From Gemmatimonadaceae bacterium (GTDB taxonomy: Bacteria; Gemmatimonadota; Gemmatimonadetes; Gemmatimonadales; Gemmatimonadaceae), in contig DASYSS010000022.1 of assembly GCA_036003045.1 (NCBI GenBank), positions 62,001 through 126,000 of the forward strand: 64,000 bases of DNA. Direction: 5' to 3'. Made by a program: the position numbers and the translations under genes. The number at the start of each line of letters is the position of its first letter. Position 1 is the first letter of the stretch. This document shows positions 4,834 to 27,336 of this stretch, piece by piece. The notes beneath the pieces are model-generated. The model was not told the origin of the DNA and did no database searches. It saw nothing but the letters and a program-made list of their open reading frames with translations.

Positions 4834-6687
4834 CTATTGTCGCGGGAGCAAGGCGACGAGAGCGTATTTCCCGCTCTTGCTCTGGACGAAGACCGCGCCG
4901 TATTTGAGCGCCACCAACGTCGTCGATCCGGTTCCTTTCTGCGTCACAGGGACACGGATTTCGAGCGGCATCTTCGCCGTGTCGCCGGTAAACGTCGCCG
5001 AAGCCCAAACCGCCTTGGTCGCGCCGATCGTCTGATTCGGATTGAAGATGAAGCTCAGGTACTTTCGCTGATCGTCGGTCATTCCCGGGAACTTCTGCGC
5101 CACCTTCTCGATGTCGCCGCTCTTGATTGCGACGACGAGCGCTGAGATCGCGGCGGTGTCGAGAGCCGGTTTTAACGGCTTCGGAGGTGTCGTATCAGCC
5201 TTAGGCGATACCAACGCCCCGGGCCCCTTCGCTGTCCCTGACGTGTCAATCGCGGGATTCGTCGCGGCGACCCCGGGTGGCGCCGCGTGCGCCGAGTCGG
5301 TCTGAACCGTCGTCGGAGGAGTCGCCGCCGGTTGCTTCCCATGCGGCCGGTTCACGAAGAACACGACCGCCGCCGCGATCGCGACCACGCCGATCAACGA
5401 TCCGATCAACGCTCCGCGCCCGCCCTTCTTCGCCGGTGCGACGCTCGTGCCGCCGACCTGTGTGTCCGTCGGCGCCGTGATCACCGCGGCCGGCATAATG
5501 CTCGTCGCGTCGCTGCTGTCGCCCACGCCCTGCGTCATCGTGCGCGGATCCCAGCCGCTCAACGTCAACGCCGGATCCAGCTGATCGCGTGCTTCCGCCG
5601 CCGTCGCCACCCGATCGCTCGGCGAGCGGGCCAGCATGTGCACGATCAGCGTGTCGAGCCGCGCCGGCAACGCCGGTATGAGATCTCGAATGTGCGGCGC
5701 CGGCTCGTGCAGGCGTCGTCGAATCATCTGCTCGCGAGTGTCGGCGGCGAACGCGGCATTGCCCGTCAGACACTGGAAGAGAATGCAGCCGAGCGCGTAC
5801 ACGTCGGTGCGCGCGTCGACCGGATCACCGAGCAGCTGCTCGGGACTCATGTACTCGGGCGTGCCGATCACGAGTCCGCTCTTGGTGAGCGCGTCTTCCT
5901 TCGAGTCGTTTACCGCCTTCGCGATACCGAAGTCGACGACCTTTGCGATCTCTTTGCCCGCGCGATTCCGTGTGACGATGACGTTGTCGGGCTTGAGATC
6001 GCGATGGACGATGCCGAGCTCATGCGCGGCATGGAGTCCGTCGGCGACCTGGCGCGCGAGATCGATCGCGCGGCGCGGATCGAGCGCGCCGTCTTTCTGG
6101 AGGATCGACGACAGCGACTCGCCGTCGACGTACTCCATGACCAGGTAGACGACCTTGTCCGCTTCGCCGTAGTCGAAGACCGCGGCGACGTTCGGGTGCA
6201 AAATGCGCGCGGCGTTCGACGCCTCGCGCGCGAATCGCTGTGACGACTCGGTGTCGTTCACGAGCGACGGGTTCATCACTTTGATCGCGCATTGGCGGTT
6301 CATCTTCACGTGCTCCGCCAGATACACCCGTCCCATCCCGCCTTCGCCGAGGCGTGCCAGAATGAGATAGCGATCGGCGATGACTCGGCCGACGAGCGGA
6401 TCCCCGCCCGTCTTTGGCCGGAGTGGCGAACCGTCTTTTGGACAGAAGCGGTCGGACGTCTCGTATTCGCCGCCGCACTGCGGGCAGACCTTGGTGACCG
6501 CGACCGTTTGATCGGGCGCCGGGGTCGGCTGTTGTGCGATCAGCCCCGAGCCGAGATGGCTATCGAGCAGGGGATGCGGCGAAGCCGCGGGATGCGGGCC
6601 GGTATCGGACGTGCCCGTTCCCCCGGCGCGCTGGCCGGCGGGTCCCGCCGCGGAAGGCTGTTCGTCGTCGTCCTGGTGATCGGCCAT
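4834..6687 (-). CDS. Membrane-anchored Ser/Thr protein kinase with N-terminal zinc ribbon (617 aa)
   Basis: This is a Hanks-type (PknB-like) kinase. Order of parts: a Pro/Gly-rich N-terminus; a small zinc-ribbon-like motif CPQCGGEYETSDRFCPKDG at about 68-86; then the kinase domain with the Gly loop LGEGGMGRVY (113-122), catalytic Lys136 in AIK, Glu155 in the C-helix, HRDLKPDN with D230, DFG at 252-254 and GTPEYMSPEQ. One membrane helix (GALIGSLIGVVAIAAAVVFF) follows at about 420-440. The extracytoplasmic tail has a Pro/Thr linker and a domain of about 100 residues of unknown function. The start at 6687 (MADHQDDD) is preferred over 6726, which adds only a short non-conserved extension. A zinc ribbon in front of the kinase is seen in several soil phyla. 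Confidence 0.93.
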   Translation of the reverse strand: MADHQDDDEQPSAAGPAGQRAGGTGTSDTGPHPAASPHPLLDSHLGSGLIAQQPTPAPDQTVAVTKVCPQCGGEYETSDRFCPKDGSPLRPKTGGDPLVGRVIADRYLILARLGEGGMGRVYLAEHVKMNRQCAIKVMNPSLVNDTESSQRFAREASNAARILHPNVAAVFDYGEADKVVYLVMEYVDGESLSSILQKDGALDPRRAIDLARQVADGLHAAHELGIVHRDLKPDNVIVTRNRAGKEIAKVVDFGIAKAVNDSKEDALTKSGLVIGTPEYMSPEQLLGDPVDARTDVYALGCILFQCLTGNAAFAADTREQMIRRRLHEPAPHIRDLIPALPARLDTLIVHMLARSPSDRVATAAEARDQLDPALTLSGWDPRTMTQGVGDSSDATSIMPAAVITAPTDTQVGGTSVAPAKKGGRGALIGSLIGVVAIAAAVVFFVNRPHGKQPAATPPTTVQTDSAHAAPPGVAATNPAIDTSGTAKGPGALVSPKADTTPPKPLKPALDTAAISALVVAIKSGDIEKVAQKFPGMTDDQRKYLSFIFNPNQTIGATKAVWASATFTGDTAKMPLEIRVPVTQKGTGSTTLVALKYGAVFVQSKSGKYALVALLPRQ

Positions 6688-6777
6688 TTTCTCGGGTCTA
6701 GTCCAAGTCCCGACGCATCGCCCCAAATCTACGCGCCGCAGCGCTTTCGCGCTCGGGGGGAATTAGGCCAATTCGTG

Positions 6778-6815
6778 CCGATGCCCCAGGCTGCTGGGGC
6801 AACCTGGGGCATCGG
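6778..6815. terminator. Perfect 13-bp hairpin between the Arg/Asp-repeat gene and the kinase gene
   Basis: CCGATGCCCCAGG and its exact complement CCTGGGGCATCGG flank a 12-base loop. Both flanking genes are on the minus strand, so the hairpin lies 58 bases after the stop of the repeat protein and about 90 bases before the kinase start. There is no clear T-run, so it may be an unusual terminator or a leader structure of the kinase mRNA. Confidence 0.55.
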
Positions 6816-6873
6816 AAGAGGGGCGTTCGGGGAACCTTGGAACCCGTTCGCCACTCGACCTTCAGCGGCCGCG

Positions 6874-7233
6874 TTACGGCTTCGCGATGCGACGCCGATC
6901 CTGACGAATGTCCCGCCTGTCTGCGCGGATGTCGTGCTTGTCACCCACGACGTCGCGGCGGTCCTGACGGACGTCGCGGAGATCCTGCCGAGCTTCCTTG
7001 TATTCGCCCGATTTGACGTCGTGGCGAACGTCGCGCTTGTCGGCGCGCAGGTCGCGCTCGTCGGTCCGCACGTCGTGGCGATCGCGCACGAGGTCGCGAT
7101 GATCGCGCCTGAGGTCCCGCGCTTCCCGCTTCGTAGTCGGGGTCGGGGTTGTCGTGGTCTGTGCGCCGGCGATTCCCGCCGCGGCGACCGCCATCGCCGC
7201 GCCGAGCACGGCCGTCTTTACGCTCCTGATCAT
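6874..7233 (-). CDS. Secreted Arg/Asp-rich heptad-repeat protein (119 aa)
   Basis: The first 24 residues (MIRSVKTAVLGAAMAVAAAG, then AGAQ) form a typical signal peptide ending in AGAQ. The mature protein starts with a short TTTTPTPTT spacer. The remaining 85 residues are almost only Arg, Asp, His, Lys, Gln and Val in a degenerate seven-residue pattern of the type RDhRxDR (examples: RDLRADKRDVRHDV and RDIRQDRR). Such a pattern should form a long, highly charged helix, perhaps a periplasmic coiled or zipper-like rod. Similar small proteins occur in other environmental bacteria, but I know of no assigned function. No neighbour explains it. Confidence 0.75.
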   Translation of the reverse strand: MIRSVKTAVLGAAMAVAAAGIAGAQTTTTPTPTTKREARDLRRDHRDLVRDRHDVRTDERDLRADKRDVRHDVKSGEYKEARQDLRDVRQDRRDVVGDKHDIRADRRDIRQDRRRIAKP

Positions 7234-7430
7234 GTGCCGCTCCTGTGAACGTTCTTGAGTGTTTCGTCATGCACCGGGTGGTGCCTGCATACACTCAGGA
7301 GACGAGAGCTGCACTTCGATCGTTAAGACCGGGCGTTGCGGGGGCCGCCGTAGGTCAGAAACGGCGGGAACCTATTCTCTCAAATGGTGTTACGCCGACC
7401 GAACAAACGCCGCTCAAGAGTCGGCGCGAA

Positions 7431-7955
7431 TCACCATCCGTTGCGGCTGCGAAGATTCGTTACATGCGCGACGTGGTGCTTCCCATGCCATTCATACAAG
7501 GCGAGCATCTGGTCGAGGTTCATCACGCCGTTCTCGGGATGTTTCAGCGTCCGCGCGAAGTCGGACGCCGACATGGCGCGCAGTACCCGGATCCACCGGT
7601 CATGGACCGCGTCGAGCAGCGCGAGCGACGTCGCGATCGGCGTGGAGCGTGAATCCTCGAGACGCGCCCACTTCGCCTCGTCGTACGGCTTGATGGTCGG
7701 CGTGTCTTCCGTGAGCGCGAGCTTGAAGCGCGTGTATGCGTTCAGGTGGCTGTCGGGTACGTGGTGCACGACTTGCCGGACGGTCCAACCGTCGGGTCGA
7801 TACGGTGTGTCGAGCTGCCGGTCGTCGAGTCCGGAGATCGCGGATCGGAGGAGCGTGGGCGCAGCGGCAATCGCGTCGATGGCGGTGCGCCTTTGATCCG
7901 ACGTCAGCGACTGAGGCCGCTGGTAGCGTCCGACGGGATATCGCAGATCTTCCAT
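7431..7955 (-). CDS. YfiT/BstA-like DinB-family metal-dependent protein (174 aa)
   Basis: This four-helix DinB-superfamily protein resembles YfiT and bacillithiol S-transferase BstA. The diagnostic N-terminus LRYPVGRY is present. So are the metal-ligand His residues in WTVRQVVHHVPDSH and in the late motif YEWHGKHHVAH, and the family segment FKLALTEDTPTIKPYDEAKW. The length of 174 residues matches the family. In Firmicutes such proteins transfer bacillithiol to electrophiles. Here the thiol partner is unknown, so only a role in thiol conjugation or detoxification is inferred. The gene diverges from the Rieske-FAD oxidoreductase gene. Confidence 0.85.
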   Translation of the reverse strand: MEDLRYPVGRYQRPQSLTSDQRRTAIDAIAAAPTLLRSAISGLDDRQLDTPYRPDGWTVRQVVHHVPDSHLNAYTRFKLALTEDTPTIKPYDEAKWARLEDSRSTPIATSLALLDAVHDRWIRVLRAMSASDFARTLKHPENGVMNLDQMLALYEWHGKHHVAHVTNLRSRNGW

Positions 7956-8069: not shown

Positions 8070-9635
8070 ATGGCCGGGTCGAACGAGCTGACGGGTCCTG
8101 ATCTCAGCGAAGGCGTCGACGCAGCGAGTATCGAGCGCGGCGGAGCGCTCCTCGGTCACGCAAGTGGCGAAGCTGTGCTGCTCGTCAGGCCTGCCACGGG
8201 CGGGGGCAGCGACTTCTGCGCGATCGCCGCGACGTGCACGCACTACGGCGGTCCGCTCGCCGAGGGACTGTTCGATGGCGACACAGTTCGGTGTCCGTGG
8301 CACCACGCGTGTTTCAACGTTCGTACGGGCGAAGCGTTGCACGCGCCCGCCCTCTCTCCCGTCGCGCGTTGGGCAACGGAGCTGCGCGACGGCAAAGTCG
8401 TCGTGACCGGCAAGTTCGAGCGAGACCCACTCGCGCCTTCGGGATCCGCGTCGTTCACGCGCGACCCGTCGATCAGGAACGTGGTGATCGTCGGGGCCGG
8501 CGCGGCGGGAAGCGCGGCCGCGGAAATGCTTCGCCGCTGCGGGCACGATGGCGCAATCACGATGGTCGACTCCGATGACGCCGCGCCCTACGACCGGCCC
8601 AATCTCTCGAAGGATTACCTCGCCGGAAACGCCCCGGAAGAATGGATTCCGCTTCGTCCGGACGACTTCTATCGCGGTCACGGCATCGAGGTCGTGCGGA
8701 GCCGAGTCAAGCGAATCGACACGTCGCGGAAGCAAATCGAGCTCGAGAACCGAGAGCCGCTCACGTACGACGCGCTCCTCCTGGCCACGGGCGCCGAACC
8801 GGTCCGACTCGACACGCCGGGAGGGAACCTGCCGCACGTCCGCTACCTGCGAACGCTCGCCGACAGCCGCGCGATCATCGCCGCGGCTGAGAAAGCCAGG
8901 CATGCGGTCGTCGTCGGATCGAGCTTCATCGGTCTCGAAGTCGCTGCGTCGCTGCGCGCGCGAAATGTCGGCGTCGACGTCGTCGCCCCGGAAACGCTTC
9001 CCCTCGGGCGCGTGCTCGGCGATCACCTCGGCACGTTCATCAAAGGGCTGCACGAGGAGCACGGAGTCGTCTTCCATCTCGGACACACCGCGCAGCGAAT
9101 CGAGGAGGACGCGGTCGTGCTCGACGACGGCACCCGGTTGCCGGCGGATCTCGTGGTGTTCGGCGTCGGCGTGAAGCCGCGTCTCGTACTCGCGGAAGAC
9201 GCCGGCCTGAACATGGACAAAGGCGTGGTCGTTGACGAGTTCCTTCGGACGAGCGCGGCGAGCGTGTACGCGGCGGGCGACATCGCGCGATGGCCGGACC
9301 CGCACACGGGCGACCGGATCCGTGTCGAGCATTGGGTCGTGGCGCAGCGGCAGGGACAAGCGGCGGCTCGCAACATGCTCGGCGCGCACGAGCCATTCGA
9401 CGCGGTCCCGTTCTTCTGGAGCGCGCACTACGACATCAGCATCAACTACGTCGGGCACGCCGAAAAGTGGGACAAGGTCGAGGTGTCCGGCAAGGCGGCC
9501 AAGCACGACGTCGCCGTGCGTTTCCTGCGCGGCGGCCAACTGTTGGCCCTGGCGACGTTGTTCCGCGACGAAGAAAGCCTCAAGGGCGAGTTCGACATGG
9601 AGCGGCAGACGGGAGCAGTGGCCGGGGCCCGGTGA
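8070..9635 (+). CDS. Rieske [2Fe-2S]-FAD/NAD(P) oxidoreductase, AIFM3-like (521 aa)
   Basis: This is a fusion of an N-terminal Rieske domain with a pyridine-nucleotide-disulfide-type reductase. The Rieske cluster ligands are in CTH (56-58) and CPWHHACF (C75, H78). The FAD Rossmann motif GAGAAGSAAAEML is at about 142-154, and the NAD(P) motif VVGSSFIGLEVA at about 281-292. A second FAD signature, VYAAGDIARWPD, comes later, and a C-terminal reductase domain starts near 430. The layout matches apoptosis-inducing-factor-3-like and rubredoxin/ferredoxin reductase-like proteins. It probably passes electrons from NAD(P)H through FAD to a Rieske centre, but the final acceptor is unknown. The start ATG follows a GAGGAT site. 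The very long open frame on the opposite strand is a GC shadow. Confidence 0.92.
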   Translation: MAGSNELTGPDLSEGVDAASIERGGALLGHASGEAVLLVRPATGGGSDFCAIAATCTHYGGPLAEGLFDGDTVRCPWHHACFNVRTGEALHAPALSPVARWATELRDGKVVVTGKFERDPLAPSGSASFTRDPSIRNVVIVGAGAAGSAAAEMLRRCGHDGAITMVDSDDAAPYDRPNLSKDYLAGNAPEEWIPLRPDDFYRGHGIEVVRSRVKRIDTSRKQIELENREPLTYDALLLATGAEPVRLDTPGGNLPHVRYLRTLADSRAIIAAAEKARHAVVVGSSFIGLEVAASLRARNVGVDVVAPETLPLGRVLGDHLGTFIKGLHEEHGVVFHLGHTAQRIEEDAVVLDDGTRLPADLVVFGVGVKPRLVLAEDAGLNMDKGVVVDEFLRTSAASVYAAGDIARWPDPHTGDRIRVEHWVVAQRQGQAAARNMLGAHEPFDAVPFFWSAHYDISINYVGHAEKWDKVEVSGKAAKHDVAVRFLRGGQLLALATLFRDEESLKGEFDMERQTGAVAGAR

Positions 9636-18340: not shown

Positions 18341-18378
18341 CTTTGGGTGACCGGCTCAGTCGAGTTGGTCACCCAAAG
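18341..18378 (+). terminator. Perfect 12-bp hairpin after the sedolisin gene
   Basis: CTTTGGGTGACC (18341-18352) and GGTCACCCAAAG (18367-18378) pair fully around a 14-base loop, 38 bases after the sedolisin stop. There is no strong T-run, but the place between two convergent genes fits a bidirectional transcription end. Confidence 0.6.
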
Positions 18379-26951: not shown

Positions 26952-27336
26952 TCGCGGCGGATAGGGAAAGCTACGGCGGGATGGCGGTCCCGACGCCTGC
27001 CATCTGAGATCTGAGTTTCTCAGGACGGATCGCGCCGATTGGGCGGTTTGTCTCGCGACGCGCGCCCCGATCTTGGGCTCGAAATCGGAGGTCTGAAATC
27101 TGACATCCCCCGTCAGCCAGCTCTCGCCGGGCCGCGCTCGACTCAGCGAGGAAAGGTGACTTGGCTTCCATCCCGTCGCCGAACGGCCAGGGCTGGTGGA
27201 CGTGAGACGTCAGATTTTCAGACGTCCGACATCCCACAAGACCGTGGCCCACTCGGCGGATCGCCAATGGCGAGCAGTCAAACGGCTCGACCGACACCGT
27301 CAGCCGAGCCGTTCGCCGCTACCAGGGCCTCAAGCG
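26952..27336. other. 385-base region without a gene, with short inverted repeats
   Basis: No convincing coding sequence is present. Two related near-palindromes, GTCTGAAATCTGAC (27091-27104) and GTCAGATTTTCAGAC (27209-27223), are inverted copies of each other apart from one extra T. CTGAG/CTCAG and ATCTGAG copies lie near 27005-27022. The region separates the Lhr start from the end of the lipoprotein gene, so it should hold the lhr promoter, which I could not define. Confidence 0.5.

Follow-up and report, generated by a model that had tools for sequence, protein, structure and literature searches.

Arg/Asp heptad proteins of Gemmatimonadota: a probably exported family with a predicted two-helix fold

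Antiparallel packing of helices is favoured by attractive charges at the flanking e-e' and g-g' pairs, and Asp at g combined with Arg at e typically gives g-e' attraction between parallel helices. LTxxQ is the motif of Spy/CpxP. The DUF1090 family (PF06476) is that of E. coli YqjC. Salt-bridged single alpha helices need opposite charges at i+3/i+4 and use Glu, Asp being rare (PMC5812594). The Arg-enriched mixed-charge domains of nuclear speckle proteins are composed mainly of Arg and Asp (PMC9324279). In this study, we analysed a protein of Arg/Asp heptads encoded in a 64,000-nucleotide stretch of a Gemmatimonadaceae genome (the window; features are listed in Table 1). The sequence-only reading of this locus had placed an open reading frame at 6874-7233 without naming a strand; the match is exact, on the minus strand. 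A literature search found no report on this Arg/Asp protein family, which seems to be undescribed and unnamed. We conclude that the protein is real, conserved and probably exported, and that its role is likeliest to be structural or protective, not enzymatic. Our preferred explanation, with a probability of about 0.4, is an exported two-helix antiparallel hairpin with an acidic and a basic face, acting by self-association and/or by binding of envelope polyanions.

Table 1. Coordinates of the Arg/Asp heptad gene, its parts and its neighbours in the window
Feature	Coordinates	Strand	Remark or basis
Arg/Asp heptad protein gene	6874..7233	-	119 codons plus stop; ATG at 7233
25 bases upstream of start with Shine-Dalgarno-like CAGGAG	7234..7258	-	sequence
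Signal-like sequence, residues 1-24	7162..7233	-	cleavage expected before Q25, by eye
Helix 1 (predicted), residues 35-75, Arg/Asp heptads	7009..7131	-	AlphaFold2, register table
Turn (predicted), G76-E77	7003..7008	-	AlphaFold2, conservation
Helix 2 (predicted), residues 78-117, Arg/Asp heptads	6883..7002	-	AlphaFold2, register table
RNA hairpin, 17 pairs (one G-U), no U run	6778..6815	-	58 bases after stop
Ser/Thr kinase gene, downstream	4834-6687	-	Pkinase E 5e-52
DinB-type gene, upstream	7431-7955		
Rieske/FAD reductase gene, upstream	8070-9635	+	

The window's genome (G000) holds one clear copy of the gene, and its three other listed matches have E-values of 0.26-0.93. A search for the same repeats in related genomes had been proposed, and the repeats were found: a single-sequence search matched 53 of 395 genomes of the phylum at E 0.001, and profile A1 matched 61 of 395 at E 1e-5, the window's own genome being included in both counts. 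The gene is carried by four of the five genomes of the genus (G255 is without it), and the nearest relatives, L034 and L035, belong to Gemmatimonadaceae. Another relative, L037, comes from Gammaproteobacteria; at E 1e-5 its phylum has matches in 22 of 398 genomes, counting G395 itself. These matches are a mixture of free-standing copies (L038, L039), RcnB-domain proteins, and sequences that resemble other repeats or chance matches (e.g., L057). No Pfam or NCBIfam model reaches its cut-off for the window protein, and none matches more than 10 of the 31 family members at E 0.01. An archaeal SMC-related protein was matched by 10 of the 31, and Asr, DivIC, CENP-H/F, DUF4148 and DUF533 by one to three each; these scattered hits were taken as charged-helix matching. 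A TPR_10 match (E 0.00015, 22.1 bits, cut-off 27.5) in one member of the 31 was set aside as composition bias. A sequence search of the PDB returned nothing at E 1. Plasmids and phages gave no match at E 0.001 and PHROGs none at E 0.01, hence there is no sign of a mobile-element origin.

The signal-like N-terminus, recognised by eye, runs to GIAGA directly before Q25, and A24 and Q25 are conserved in at least 90% of the 31 members; it bears out the earlier description of the protein as secreted. About 85 residues of repeats had been described after the signal, and approximately 83 are there: residues 35-117 are seven-residue units, e.g., RDLRADK RDVRHDV. The 95 residues from Q25 contain 24 Arg, 6 Lys, 19 Asp, and 4 Glu. 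The mature part has one Tyr and otherwise no aromatic residue except His; the window protein has four His and no Cys. Charges recur with a heptad period far above chance, since like-charge pairs at i+7 number 34 (5 are opposite) against 13.6 ± 2.9 in 300 shuffles. Opposite charges prevail at i+2 (32 to 3) and i+5 (29 to 5), and the 31 members pooled have the same spacing.

The turn Gly, present in 28 of 31 members, served as the zero point for the heptad register of these 28. Position d is Leu/Val/Ile, g is Asp, c is Asp/Glu, e and b are Arg/Lys, and f is variable, being the position of greatest entropy for 9 of 12 heptad blocks. Between offsets -42 and +40, 50-100% of members have a hydrophobic residue at d; at +47, 41% do. 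At offsets -32, -25, -18, -11, and +15, g is Asp/Glu in all 28 members, and at -25, -18, -11, and +15 it is pure Asp in all 28. The constancy of Asp at g, next to the tolerance of Glu at c, hints that the geometry around g is tight. Position a is often Arg/Lys (21-89% by position), which is unusual for a core. The heptads are of coiled-coil type: they have a core and, at f, a variable position that is exposed, and the Arg/Lys-rich a is the oddity.

AlphaFold2 was run on monomers with 5-row alignments. In the model of the window protein, block pLDDT is 91-96 over residues 41-110 and pTM is 0.58, the N-terminus being of low confidence. The model of L037 has helices at 38-71 and 75-111 (pTM 0.51). 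The two proteins are 36-41% identical by alignment, and both models break at the turn; two helices packed around a turn are thus a predicted feature. The sequence-only reading had called the protein helical and heptad-based, and the predicted helices and the register agree with it. The turn Gly is present in 28 of 31 members (the window included), followed directly by Asp/Glu in 23 of those 28 and by another Asp/Glu three positions beyond that one in 22 of 28; the other three members have an ADG loop in its place. In L014, L018, L021, and L047, the Gly-Asp turn is replaced by a loop of the form ADG/RDG-x-[VI]-[TS]-x-x-E, which resembles an EF-hand or TerB-type loop. L010, L026, L029, and L033, all in one genus group (g3), carry a WC motif and a second Cys just before or in the first heptad, possibly a disulfide cap.

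In a shape search of the PDB with the window model, many of the best matches have names of two-helix hairpins and superpose at 1-2.5 A across 70-90 residues; they include Snf7, Vipp1, the seryl-tRNA synthetase arm, and designed hairpins. The best Foldseek E-value was only 0.69, so the match speaks for shape and not for kinship. Across the turn, a and d' fall into antiparallel layers with a single offset (q-p = 2). The 11 core layers of the window protein comprise six of an aliphatic residue with Arg/Lys, three apolar layers, and two with His45 or Glu59. The attractive flank charges expected of antiparallel packing were not found: the e-e' pairs of the hairpin are 546 like and 7 opposite, Arg facing Arg along one edge, and the g-g' pairs are 415 like and 35 opposite, Asp facing Asp along the other. 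These like charges speak against a lone hairpin being stable and would be in keeping with a parallel pair. At shift 2 of the flank scan, 495 pairs were opposite and 22 like; they are not neighbours in this geometry, though a different geometry could make them so. The lengths of helix 1 and helix 2 correlate weakly (Spearman 0.40, p 0.037, n=28, from a crude count uncorrected for kinship).

According to the preferred explanation, the small protein would reach the cell envelope by Sec export, ending up either in the periplasm or outside. Removal of the signal would leave two heptad helices that pack antiparallel about a tight Gly-Asp/Glu turn. One face would then be formed by positions g and c of both helices and the opposite face by e and b, and the molecule would be a plate with one acidic and one basic side. 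The net charge of the window protein is +19 at e and b and -21 at g and c (family means +19.7 and -21.2, n=28). Strain would be relieved by stacking of the acid face on the basic face of other copies, and/or the basic face would be laid on envelope polyanions (lipid A phosphates, polyphosphate, or exported nucleic acid), the Asp face then carrying cations.

The electrostatics were estimated with a crude straight-helix Debye-Hueckel toy model, in which charges were placed by hand and sideways shifts were left out. Charges were shuffled as a control for the intra-hairpin energy only, and the stacking cases run were acid-on-base and base-on-base. In this toy model, the intra-hairpin energy of the window protein was +6.7 kcal/mol against 0.2 ± 1.5 for shuffled charges, and the mean of 28 members was +7.8 kcal/mol. 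A translated acid-on-base stack gave -23.8 kcal/mol for the window protein (family mean -26.0), and a turned-over base-on-base copy was repelled in all 28 members (mean +15.1). Since a lone hairpin is strained and the acid-on-base stack gains energy, self-association and/or polyanion binding would be favoured. A narrower version, in which the hairpin self-assembles through in-register, acid-on-base stacks into electrostatically glued filaments or sheets of the envelope in Gemmatimonadota, appears rather unlikely.

The strain of the hairpin is an argument for the main rival as well. This is a kinked rod of two or three parallel coiled-coil chains, in which Asp at g and Arg at e would pair between chains and the Gly would be the kink; we consider it doubtful. 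It is favoured by the register, with g = Asp and e = Arg, and by the like charges that the hairpin would set face to face, strained in the toy model. However, Arg would meet Arg at many of the a positions if the chains ran parallel, the cross-turn register suits antiparallel a-d' layers, and both AlphaFold2 models break at the turn, that of the window protein matching hairpins in shape. The turn itself, Gly followed by the two conserved acidic positions, also speaks against a mere kink, as such a Gly-acid-acid pattern is a helix-stop and helix-cap.

The small, exported, helical, and net basic character of the protein would also be consistent with a holding chaperone in the periplasm, similar to Spy/CpxP or Skp, and 4 of the 31 members gave weak matches to NCBIfam Spy (best E 0.00025). 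Against this, the window protein, a biased-composition sequence, scores 19.8 bits where the Spy model (NF007769) has a cut-off of 174, neither Spy/CpxP nor Skp is among the six Pfam families matched by the 31 members at E 0.01, the LTxxQ motif is absent, and hydrophobic surface is scarce beyond the seam. We regard a chaperone as clearly unlikely. Also improbable is a protectant against desiccation of the hydrophilin or LEA-like type, which would lack order in water and become helical on drying. The phylum is common in dry soils, and the high charge and the near lack of aromatics described above would fit such a protein. The heptad phase is nevertheless fixed, g staying Asp and c Asp or Glu, and the conserved turn and the confidently predicted helices point to a fold rather than mere composition.

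Among the L037-phylum profile matches are exported Arg/Asp-repeat proteins with a C-terminal RcnB domain, which raises the idea that the window protein is a free-standing form of the RcnB-type N-terminal part with a role in metal homeostasis. This is quite improbable, because the window protein, with its four His, has no RcnB match and the shared part is a low-complexity repeat, which need not mean kinship; moreover, the 12 ORFs scanned were picked by eye, from 11 of the 22 genomes with a match.

A long, very stable, salt-bridged single alpha helix had been put forward in the sequence-only reading, on the strength of Arg-Asp pairs at i+3/i+4. The heptads are rich in charge as such a helix would be, but the spacing is the inverse of what was claimed: pairs at i+3 and i+4 are opposite in 5 and 4 cases against 23 and 26 like. 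Per residue (35-119), this amounts to 0.11 opposite and 0.58 like pairs, whereas a designed AEEEKKK repeat scores 1.37 and 0, and like pairs exceed opposite ones at these distances in all 31 members. With opposite charges at i+2/i+5 and like charges at i+3/i+4, no salt-bridged single helix is to be expected. The use of Asp for Glu (19 vs 4), the aliphatic residue at every seventh position, and the break of the AlphaFold2 model at G76 point the same way. This candidate was therefore rejected on charge spacing and is very improbable; 'zipper', the alternative word used for the same protein, comes closer.

The gene itself was examined through substitution patterns. In the sense frame, dN/dS between the window protein and three same-genus relatives is 0.30, 0.36, and 0.37. 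Across 21 pairs it is 0.08-0.52, below 1 in every pair and with a third-position excess, although several pairs come close to synonymous saturation (pS up to 0.66). The claim of a coding gene would have fallen with evidence that the frame is not translated, and here the sense frame passes. The only plus-strand ORF of at least 60 aa listed over the gene is the antisense ORF 6292-7248 (+). In its codon frame, pN exceeds pS in all 21 pairs (0.35/0.25, 0.37/0.26, and 0.41/0.27 for the window's pairs). A second antisense phase does, like the sense frame, show a pN smaller than pS; the reason is that the third positions of the two fall on the same bases. GGAG-like motifs stand close to the start codon in many of the 31 members (by eye). 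That codon bias has left an untranslated frame here and that the antisense ORF, or nothing, is the real gene can practically be dismissed: the antisense ORF is long and one antisense phase also has the lower pN, but the sense frame combines a third-position excess with dN/dS below 1 in all 21 pairs, the antisense codon frame has the reverse ratio, and start and ribosome-binding motif recur among members. The frame is under selection, and the gene family is real.

None of the flanking genes names a function for the protein. The DinB and Rieske/FAD-reductase genes flank the heptad gene in three other genomes of the genus, which is plain synteny and gives no functional hint. In 3 of 25 regions (the window, L036, and L109), a kinase gene comes directly after the heptad gene in the same orientation; it is a divergent neighbour in L113 and occurs anywhere in the region in 9 of 25, several of these nine sharing synteny. 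Kinase matches number 28 to 66 per genome across the six genomes searched (58 in the window's). With so many kinases per genome and shared synteny, no functional link was drawn. By eye, the window's kinase resembles a zinc ribbon at its N-terminus, contains one hydrophobic segment, and has additional C-terminal sequence that is not part of the kinase domain. In the sister genomes L034 (5296-9296) and L035 (5278-9632), two large genes resembling trehalose/glycogen enzymes (by eye) lie between the heptad gene and the kinase; in the window, no such pair stands there.

Downstream of the gene, a perfect hairpin at 58 bases had been taken as a sign of tight control. Its presence and distance hold; its arms are 94% complementary as DNA and include one G-U pair as RNA, hence it is not perfect. 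The stretch folds with z = -4.96. Tight control finds no backing: no promoter- or terminator-like consensus was found in 6500-7700, Rfam gave nothing at the gathering score, and stems are common after the family's stop codons. A stem of at least 9 pairs within 120 bases past the stop was found in 20 of 30 members, the window included (19 of 29 relatives), one of the 31 having been left out for too little flank. Within the genus, the stem has 12 pairs in L007 and 7 in L005 and L006. The hairpin is therefore strong, yet not conserved even within the genus, and it is perhaps a transcript end or stabiliser. With G-U allowed, the whole window holds 10 stems of at least 13 pairs, three of them of 17; the other two 17-pair stems lie at 18341-18378 (+) and 27279-27315 (-).

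The proposed two-faced hairpin offers a simple, testable sequence code (g = Asp, e/b = Arg/Lys, d = aliphatic, and a Gly-Asp/Glu turn) for charge segregation, here without Pfam or NCBIfam coverage and in a little-studied phylum. If hairpins do stack, the protein would be an Arg/Asp-coded helical polymer, its assembly switched by salt, pH, or divalent cations, and a natural charge-driven helical assembly module of use in protein design. If they do not, a tempting single-alpha-helix reading is still cleanly corrected.

Of the known systems, DUF1090 has an attractive register. Like the window protein, its members bear a signal and are helical, with a C-terminal half built as helix-Gly-Asp-helix. 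In L115, hydrophobic residues fall, by eye, at the same offsets from Gly (-14, -7, -3, +5, +12, and +19), and the best profile alignment falls on the shared turn. DUF1090 differs in its mixed Lys/Glu/Ala helices in place of Arg/Asp and in an additional Cys-framed first part; the two framing Cys are absent from the window protein, and two Cys precede the heptads in 4 of 31 members. Membership was rejected, as the statistics fail. PF06476 matches 0 of 31 members at E 0.01 and exceeds the Pfam cut-off in 0 of 200 genomes of the phylum, and hhalign gives a probability of 7.5% over 17 columns. The alignment scores 22.7, while 30 shuffled-column decoys reach no more than 12.0 and the reversed profile reaches 14.7; without signal peptides the score falls to 11.3, where decoys reach 10.9.

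The RcnB (PF11776) repeat proteins share with the window protein a signal-like sequence followed by Arg/Asp repeats and differ in their C-terminal RcnB domain, which gave no match in the window protein up to E 10. The domain is above the Pfam cut-off in 11 of the 12 scanned L037-phylum ORFs and below it in one (L049). N-terminal Arg/Asp or similar repeats are seen in L041, L042, L043, L045, L047, L049, L050, L052, L053, L055, L056, and L061; L049 and L053 in addition give DUF1090 matches that stay under the family's cut-off.

Vipp1/PspA and ESCRT-III form a long two-helix hairpin such as is predicted for the window protein, and Snf7 and Vipp1 are among the best shape matches. They differ in that the window protein is probably exported and shows no sign of sequence kinship with them, the shape being a common one; the Z-scores of 9.9-11.8 (rows shown) lie inside the tool's warning range for helical bundles, and the Foldseek E-values are at least 0.69. 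The mixed-charge domains of nuclear speckle proteins are eukaryotic and nuclear (PMC9324279), whereas the window protein is probably exported, heptad-ordered, and predicted to be folded. SAH/ER/K domains are mostly charged, repeat-like, and helical, as the window protein is or, for the helices, is predicted to be; the window protein is set apart from them by its inverted charge spacing, its Asp in place of Glu, its aliphatic seam, and its predicted break at the turn.
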